This document shows positions 48,451 through 50,245 of a stretch of 64,000 nt of DNA, one piece after another. A program made the translations under genes and the position numbers. This stretch comes from Chloroflexota bacterium (lineage in GTDB: Bacteria > Chloroflexota > Anaerolineae > Promineifilales > Promineifilaceae). Position 1 is the first letter of the stretch. Every line of letters starts with the position of its first letter. Location: assembly GCA_017993775.1 (NCBI GenBank), contig JAGOMA010000007.1, forward strand, positions 62,001 to 126,000. The letters are read 5' to 3'. Below the pieces are notes generated by a model. That model worked only from the letters and a program-made list of their open reading frames with translations. It was not told the origin of the DNA and made no database searches.

Positions 48451-49104
48451 ATGAGTATTTTGATTTTAACGGTAGTAGGCGTGGTAACGGCCGTGTTAGC
48501 CACGCAAGGCGAATATAAACCCACTCGCAGGCAAGTTTACATCTTCAAACCCGTCACCACAGGGCTGATTATCCTCATCGCCTTATTGGGAACCGGCGTA
48601 ACGCCCCCGCTCTACAAAGGGCTGATTATCGCCGGTCTACTCTTTTGCCTCGGCGGCGACATCTTGCTCATGCTGCCAGCGCGATACTTCATTGGCGGAT
48701 TGATCAGTTTTCTTGTTGGGCACCTGCTATACATCGTCGCCTTTGTCACAGACGCCGGCTTTCAGTTTTCGCCGTTGTGGCTTCTGCCGCTGTTGGTGTA
48801 TGGGAGCGTCATTTACAGCCTGCTTAATCCCCATTTGGGCAGCATGCGTTTGCCGGTCATCATTTACATGATAACCATCCTGACAATGGCCTGGCAAGCA
48901 TTGGGGCGTTGGTCAGTTCAGCCAACCAGCAGCGCTTTATTGGCGGCGGTGGGCGCAGTTTTATTTGTCCTGTCGGATTCGACCTTAGCGCTGGATCGTT
49001 TTCGGGCAAAATTCCGCAGCGCGCGCGTGATCGTGTTGAGTACTTATTGGCTGGCGCAATGGCTCATCGCGCTGTCGGTGGGCGGGTACCTGGCGTTAGT
49101 GTAA
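48451..49104 (+). CDS. YhhN-family membrane protein
   Basis: This 217-aa protein has about eight hydrophobic helices and the family pattern KPVTTGLIILIAL, LFCLGGDILLMLP, FLVGHLLYIVAF and FVLSDSTLALDRF. The family includes TMEM86 lysoplasmalogenases in animals; bacterial function is unclear. AAGGA precedes the start. It is followed by a strong terminator. Confidence 0.9.
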   Translation: MSILILTVVGVVTAVLATQGEYKPTRRQVYIFKPVTTGLIILIALLGTGVTPPLYKGLIIAGLLFCLGGDILLMLPARYFIGGLISFLVGHLLYIVAFVTDAGFQFSPLWLLPLLVYGSVIYSLLNPHLGSMRLPVIIYMITILTMAWQALGRWSVQPTSSALLAAVGAVLFVLSDSTLALDRFRAKFRSARVIVLSTYWLAQWLIALSVGGYLALV

Positions 49105-49135
49105 CTGTTTCGATTTTTTCCGTCTTTAAACAAGA

Positions 49136-49167
49136 GAAAGCCCAGTCTTAGCTGGGCTTTCTTTTTT
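49136..49167 (+). terminator. Rho-independent terminator after the YhhN gene
   Basis: GAAAGCCCAG, loop TCTTAG, CTGGGCTTTC then TTTTTT. Read leftward it also has a modest T-run (TCTTGTTT), so it could end the reverse transcript proposed at 49137-49496. Confidence 0.9.
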
Positions 49168-49496
49168 CACAAAATTTGTGTTTCTTCAAAAACTTTTTCT
49201 TAACTTTCTAAATCTTAACTTTCTAACTTTGTCTAGTCCTAGATTTAACTTTAACTATTTTTCTGTCTTCTGAATCTAACTTCTACAAAACTCATTAACA
49301 CATTATCAATTTTCTAACGGCTAACTAAACGCTACCGTCTTCACCAGGTTTGTGTTGGTCAGAGGCTTGAACTAATCTACCTGACCCTACTTGAGGCCGC
49401 TTTTGTTAGCCGGTTCGGAATGCACTCGATCGCTTCTATAGGCGCCTCCTTGTCTGATATGGAACGAAACTTTGTAAATGTGTAGGTTAACCTGAA
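49137..49496 (-). ncRNA. Candidate non-coding RNA of about 360 nt
   Basis: A gene-free, AT-rich stretch follows a near-consensus reverse promoter (TTGACG, 17 bp, TATGAT). The predicted transcript contains a helix pair CGGCTAAC / GTTAGCCG enclosing GGTCAG...CTGACC. A long purine-rich tail with AAGTTAGA/AAGTTAAG units follows, then the terminator at 49136-49167. No ribosome site with a start codon is present. It does not show the conserved cores that I know of RNase P RNA, tmRNA, SRP RNA or 6S RNA. The assignment is an inference from promoter, structure and terminator only. Confidence 0.35.
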
Positions 49497-49501
49497 AACA
49501 T

Positions 49502-49530
49502 CATAACGGTTTAAAGGGGTCACGTCAATA
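49502..49530 (-). promoter_or_regulatory. Strong promoter directed into the gene-free region
   Basis: On the reverse strand TTGACG (49530-49525) and TATGAT (49507-49502) are separated by 17 bp. No coding sequence lies downstream on that strand before the terminator at 49136. Confidence 0.6.
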
Positions 49531-49576
49531 GGTCATTTGGGTAATTTTAATCAACGGTTTACCTACGCGGGGCGGG

Positions 49577-50245
49577 TCAGAACCCATCACCAGAGGTAGC
49601 GAAACTATTGAGCGGCAAGATGGTTTCTTCGTTGGTGCCGATAATTTCAGCTTCTAAAGAGCCGTGAGTCATTTCTTGCAAGGCGACCTGGAAGGCCGGG
49701 AACCGGGTGACGGTGAATTGGGCAGTGAGGGTGATGTCGGCGGCAAATTCTTCTTCGATGACACGGCCGTCGTGCGCCTCCACCAACAAGCGAATCCGAT
49801 CCAGGTGGCTGTAGGGCAAGGCCAACAGTACCAGATGGGTGGGAACCTTCTCCGCCAGGGGCAGCACGGCAAGGACGGCTTTAACGGCATCCCCATAAGC
49901 GCGTACCAGACCGCCCGTGCCCAATTTGGTCCCGCCAAAATAGCGCGTCACCACCACTGCCAGATCGCCCAGACCGCTGCCCTGAATGACGGCCAACATG
50001 GGCCGCCCGGCCGTACCGGACGGCTCGCCGTCGTCGTTGCAGTGGGCGGTGACAGACGCGCCGAAGCCGATCTGGTAGGCGGGTACGTTGTGGCTGGCGT
50101 CGGTGAATTCTTCTTTGATGCGTTTGATGAAGGTTTTGGCCTCGTCGACACTGAAAACTGGCGCGGCGGTGGCGATGAAACGGGAGTTTTTCACCTCGAT
50201 TTCGGCGCGGGTTTCGGCGGCGGGGATGGGGTAGCGGATGCTCAT
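49577..50245 (-). CDS. YigZ/IMPACT-family protein
   Basis: This is a 222-aa protein. The N-terminal UPF0029 domain is recognised by EVKNSRFIATAAPV, HNVPAYQIG, NDDGEPSGTAGRPML and VVVTRYFGGTKLGTGGLVRAYG. The C-terminal part (about residues 140-205) is the usual DUF1949-like ferredoxin fold. Eukaryotic IMPACT relatives modulate the GCN2 pathway; bacterial function is uncertain. It is divergent from the lipoprotein gene at 50363. Confidence 0.93.
   Translation of the reverse strand: MSIRYPIPAAETRAEIEVKNSRFIATAAPVFSVDEAKTFIKRIKEEFTDASHNVPAYQIGFGASVTAHCNDDGEPSGTAGRPMLAVIQGSGLGDLAVVVTRYFGGTKLGTGGLVRAYGDAVKAVLAVLPLAEKVPTHLVLLALPYSHLDRIRLLVEAHDGRVIEEEFAADITLTAQFTVTRFPAFQVALQEMTHGSLEAEIIGTNEETILPLNSFATSGDGF

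Follow-up and report, generated by a model that had tools for sequence, protein, structure and literature searches.

A conserved, previously uncatalogued candidate RNA of Anaerolineae in which a ribosome-binding site and a short reading frame run into a predicted three-way junction

Within the window, that is, the whole 64-kb stretch of DNA analysed here, the segment 49105-49576 is intergenic and lies between a plus-strand open reading frame of 217 amino acids (48451-49104), which presents its stop to it, and a minus-strand yigZ-like gene (49577-50245), which presents its 3' end. The segment had been described as differing sharply in composition from its flanks and as lacking a repeated octamer. 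Both statements hold: its GC content is 38.6% compared to 58.2% for the window, and the octamer ACGGCCGT has 0 copies in the segment versus 161 in the 64 kb. This octamer is palindromic, would be expected only 1.7 times from base composition and recurs with a median spacing of 258 bp. Loci of the window's own family likewise contain many copies (about 1-3 per kb), whereas none was found in the loci checked from two families, f46 and f42.

On the minus strand we found a sigma70-type promoter, TTGACG-17-TATGAT (49528-49500; -35 at 49523-49528, -10 at 49500-49505), at the place where the preliminary description had put it and with a score of 10/12. As about one such site per 800 bp arises by chance, we take the promoter as real because it is conserved in the homologues: the -35 position reads TTGAC(A/T), TTGGCA or TTGAAA in most of them, and TATGATRTTTTCRGGTTAACCT, at the -10 element, is common to four genomes of the family. 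Judged from the -10 element, transcription would start at about 49491-49494 and enter a 5' leader, AGGTTAACCT... (49452-49493), which contains a covarying hairpin in f46. The purine-rich tail and the hairpin terminator described earlier are likewise both present. The tail (49172-49318) is AT- and purine-rich with a GC content of 24.5% and is the least conserved part of the RNA, while the terminator hairpin AGAAAGCCCAGCTAAGACTGGGCTTTCT (49162-49135) has the same stem in genome G028. Read on the plus strand, this hairpin has the longer T-run, so that it may end transcription of both convergent units and is probably used by the facing plus-strand gene as well.

Is this segment conserved in relatives, as the preliminary description proposed to check? 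Covariance searches recovered about 24 homologues, spread over four Anaerolineae families (f1, f42, f46 and f17), mostly with one copy per genome. Beyond a complete match at 94% in the sister genome G001, a DNA search within the family turned up fragments only; two of these, short and collinear, gave the entry into the family and came from G006 and G028. When their copies and that of G001 are aligned with the window, TATGATRTTTTCRGGTTAACCT, AAGGAGG and two stems are kept and the tail is not. A sequence-only model (R1) led to further members in other families, and a model of nine block-aligned sequences with three named helices, P1 to P3 (R2), matched about 20 copies in the f1 genera g1, g4 and g6, in f42 and in f46. 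A third model added two f17 genera (L066, L135) with weak scores, which nevertheless have the Shine-Dalgarno/UAUCG/frame block, P1-P3, the 3' motif and the terminator. Carriers make up 10 of the 12 genomes in f46 and are patchy in the window's own family (8/52). Among 400 genomes drawn from the phylum, only the window's own copy and L064 matched, the latter being judged spurious. When the GTDB genome collection was scanned for an exact pattern of the RNA, all records that matched were from Chloroflexota/Anaerolineae, and this pattern was unmatched in viral contigs. We rejected the weak model matches L064, L065, L069, L074, L094-L103, L134 and L136 as chance, most of them falling within coding sequence or having no junction. 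One genome, G317, has two copies of the RNA (contigs C1 and C2; L060 and L068), of which L068 is diverged and has its frame shifted relative to P1.

None of 4227 Rfam families matched at the gathering score, the 6S model included, which agrees with the earlier remark that this is no recognised RNase P, tmRNA, SRP or 6S RNA. Weak matches (rimP, BSnc120, SdsR and others) were dismissed as terminator-like hairpins far below gathering scores. tmRNA shares with the Anaerolineae RNA a structured body and a short reading frame but, unlike it, has no Shine-Dalgarno-led frame; it was rejected because the RNA stays below the RF00023 cut-off, no tRNA-like domain was found, and ordinary tmRNA occurs elsewhere in the genomes tested (below cut-off in one). 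The 14 homologous loci compared with Rfam gave no match except a separate, ordinary SRP RNA. A highly diverged member of a known family, e.g. 6S or SRP RNA, would fit an independent small transcript of mostly one copy per genome; with the window and all 14 loci unmatched and with SRP RNA and tmRNA encoded separately, we consider it very improbable. We found no paper in the literature describing the RNA. Near the copy in G006, at a distance of about 1.1 kb, is an ordinary SRP RNA of the bacterial small type (L047, 2685-2783).

The homologues point to a common fold, a three-way junction of P1, P2 and P3. In the window, P1 would pair GGCTAACAAAAGC (49399-49411) with GCGTTTAGTTAGCC (49319-49332), with one further pair between 49412 and 49318, P2 would pair GGTCAG (49381-49386) with CTGACC (49357-49362), and P3 would be the hairpin ACC(T)G-GTGAAGA-CGGT (49334-49349), all on the minus strand and all backed by covariation. 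P1 measures about 14-16 bp across the family, the 7-nt loop of P3 is conserved with the consensus GYGAAAA, and the strand joining P2 to P3 reads AACACAA (49350-49356; consensus ANACRCA). Two of these pairings had already been noticed by eye, namely CGGCTAAC (49412-49405) with GTTAGCCG (49325-49318), which belongs to P1, and the P2 segments (49386-49381 with 49362-49357), and covariation now confirms both. In 14 homologues outside R2, 90.1% of cells are paired and 20 of 24 pairs show compensatory double changes; 0 of 500 shuffles reach the observed values, and slid partners pair at only 19-42%. As the alignment of these 14 sequences was fitted to R2, we ran a separate check with MAFFT and free RNAalifold on nine full f46 transcripts, which returned P1 (16 bp), P2, P3, the terminator and a 5' hairpin, with 26 of 50 pairs covarying. 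A hairpin that follows the Shine-Dalgarno sequence only in f46 is invariant and hence without covariation support. Compared with the sister genome, the window's copy is 99.2% identical in the core and 83-93% identical in the other segments. Thermodynamic folding of one sequence by itself does not stand out significantly (transcript, z = -1.21; core, z = -0.02); thus, the evidence for structure is comparative. The possible unrecognised structured RNA of the preliminary description thereby becomes a well-supported prediction, resting on homologues, covariation in sequences unseen by the model and the absence of an Rfam match: a previously uncatalogued, conserved structured RNA family of Anaerolineae.

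Does the RNA act on the gene that follows it? The neighbours, whose names were read from translations rather than from profile searches, differ between families. In f1 the RNA lies downstream of yigZ, with a convergent gene on its other side; in f42 its upstream neighbour is a fructose-bisphosphatase-like gene, and in seven f46 loci a lacI-type gene follows directly on the same strand. This last arrangement would suit a leader or attenuator that regulates the following gene in cis, yet the RNA's terminator and a separate TTGACA-TATAAT-type promoter stand between the RNA and lacI; moreover, the gene that comes next is convergent in f1, and elsewhere it varies. As a general explanation the lacI attenuator is thus largely refuted, and we give a cis-regulatory leader very little credence. 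Because the downstream genes are either convergent or have their own promoter, the RNA is, by prediction, a separate transcription unit; with its own predicted promoter and terminator and no obligatory downstream gene, it has the layout expected of an independent RNA family. A synteny search with yigZ for diverged copies in other f1 genera found none behind this gene in the 30 loci examined, so that there the RNA has been lost, has moved or has diverged. On either side of the strong promoter of the f46 lacI-type gene, boxes resembling CTTAAAG..TTTTAGT are repeated and may form this gene's own operator (L051 1643-1838; also L052, L056, L057, L060, L062 and L063).

Upstream of P1, the RNA carries a near-invariant Shine-Dalgarno sequence, AAGGAGG (49445-49451), which the preliminary description had not mentioned; it is replaced by CAGGAGG in L059, TAGGAGG in L068 and AGGGAGG or ACGGAGG in f17. 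About 5 nt further on stands AUA or AUC, never AUG. Read from this triplet, or from a GUG or UUG situated one or two codons later, the frame runs uninterrupted for 15-26 codons. The preliminary description had seen no plausible open frame in the region. This holds insofar as the window's own frame has no AUG, GUG or UUG, and fails insofar as 20 codons, ATA GAA GCG ATC ... AGG TAG (IEAIECIPNRLTKAASSRVR*; 49439-49377), follow a perfect Shine-Dalgarno sequence and remain open in the homologues too, e.g. as IEVPDWESKRLAGNHRR* in f46, IGVIEWNIYRRARGGVC* in f42 and IVLECLTETHWLAGNCTK* in g4. The families f1, f42 and f46 have AAGGAGG, UAUMG and the open frame in common, and the f17 copies share the frame. 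A GUG or UUG start is available in about 20 of the 24 copies; near the Shine-Dalgarno sequence of the other four (the window's own, G001, L057 and L059) there is no AUG, GUG or UUG. The AUM triplet is out of frame in G006 and G028 owing to a 1-nt deletion, and GUG is kept there. Behind the presumed start we found one 3-nt length change, and the 1-nt changes lie ahead of it.

Is the short frame translated? In frame 0, 20 of 50 single-nucleotide codon changes are synonymous versus 12.7 expected (p = 0.017), and shuffling codon columns gave p of about 0.04, figures obtained on related sequences whose alignment was made partly by hand, and on bases that P1 also constrains; frames 1 and 2 show no synonymous excess. 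Together, these observations are suggestive of coding. They weigh against a purely non-coding RNA, in which AAGGAGG would be an accessible G-rich seed for C-rich targets or for the 16S 3' end (a decoy) and the frame would be open by chance or through sequence constraint: such an RNA leaves unexplained why the synonymous excess is confined to frame 0 and why the frame is open in nearly all copies with a single 3-nt indel inside. On the other hand, in f46 the block surrounding the Shine-Dalgarno sequence hardly varies at any codon position, suggesting constraint at the RNA level too, the junction is strongly conserved and the window's own copy lacks a start codon, so we regard the non-coding reading as unlikely but a serious competitor. 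At the opposite end, the RNA might be an ordinary mRNA whose product is a microprotein of about 15-26 residues (V-x-D/E-W/C-x-x-x-R-L-A/T), the structure being part of the coding and 3' untranslated regions. The Shine-Dalgarno sequence, the conserved D/E and W/C positions and the synonymous changes would suit such a peptide. However, its C-terminal part and length vary freely, four copies have no canonical start, P1-P3 run past the stop codon and the fold is better conserved than the peptide sequence, which leaves a plain microprotein mRNA improbable and, in our ranking, behind the purely non-coding RNA.

We place first, tentatively and at somewhat less than an even chance, a structured, mRNA-like small RNA that is transcribed on its own and in which the loading of ribosomes and the folding of the junction would compete. 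The layout that comparison of the homologues indicates, i.e. promoter, AAGGAGG, short frame, covarying junction and intrinsic terminator, has one feature on which this mechanism turns: the 5' strand of P1 lies within codons of the frame, so that a ribosome on the frame would have to open P1 and thereby exclude the junction. We infer that a 30S subunit would bind at the Shine-Dalgarno sequence and that ribosomes entering the 15-26-codon frame would unwind P1, making translation and the folded junction mutually exclusive. The junction would be the active form, with the P3 loop and the ANACRCA strand as its likely contact surface, and loading or release of ribosomes would set the amount of RNA in this form. 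Weak points of this reading are the modest coding statistics, the four copies with no canonical start near the Shine-Dalgarno sequence, the shifted frame of L068, the f46 block with its signs of RNA-level constraint, and the patchy presence in the window's own family. A variant of this scheme makes the RNA a 30S trap or sensor, which captures 30S at the near-cognate start until a rare productive initiation unzips the junction; initiation would then depend on IF3 or ribosome supply and the RNA would report initiation status. We speculate along these lines because the Shine-Dalgarno sequence is near-perfect while the triplet 5 nt on is AUA or AUC and never AUG, and hold a trap or sensor to be distinctly improbable.

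Dual-function small RNAs such as SgrS/SgrT, RNAIII and Spot 42 offer the closest likeness in layout, as independent small transcripts with a promoter, an intrinsic terminator, a ribosome-binding site and a short frame. The Anaerolineae RNA is unrelated to them by Rfam search, and its frame forms one strand of a conserved three-way junction. Its predicted layout thus resembles a dual-function small RNA, and we do not count it among the proven ones because a usable start codon, as dual-function small RNAs have, is not conserved in it. The Yfr6 and Downstream-peptide RNAs of cyanobacteria are also structured, with about 250 nt and a short conserved frame (PMC2864571); in these the structure lies in the 5' UTR, whereas in the Anaerolineae RNA it overlaps and follows the frame, and they come from a different phylum and gave no Rfam match. 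Chloroflexi-1 RNA (RF01698), listed for Chloroflexus aggregans (PMC2864571), is likewise a structured RNA candidate from Chloroflexota, and its Rfam model does not match either. With the family described here, a large, little-studied class with poorly described small RNAs would gain a structured RNA that Rfam does not contain. If the conserved ribosome-binding site and frame do share a helix with the fold, it would offer a clean test case for the competition between translation and structure in a free-standing RNA.

One further element recurs in the 3' part of the RNA. In f46 and f17 the motif ACAGAYCCWAUA is found downstream of P1 and ahead of the terminator (L052, L056, L058, L060, L062, L066 and L135), and the tail of the window copy contains a weak match to it, ACAGAAAAATA. 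A loose form of the motif, a pattern picked after inspection of the data, occurs in 10 of 23 copies versus 0.8 expected.
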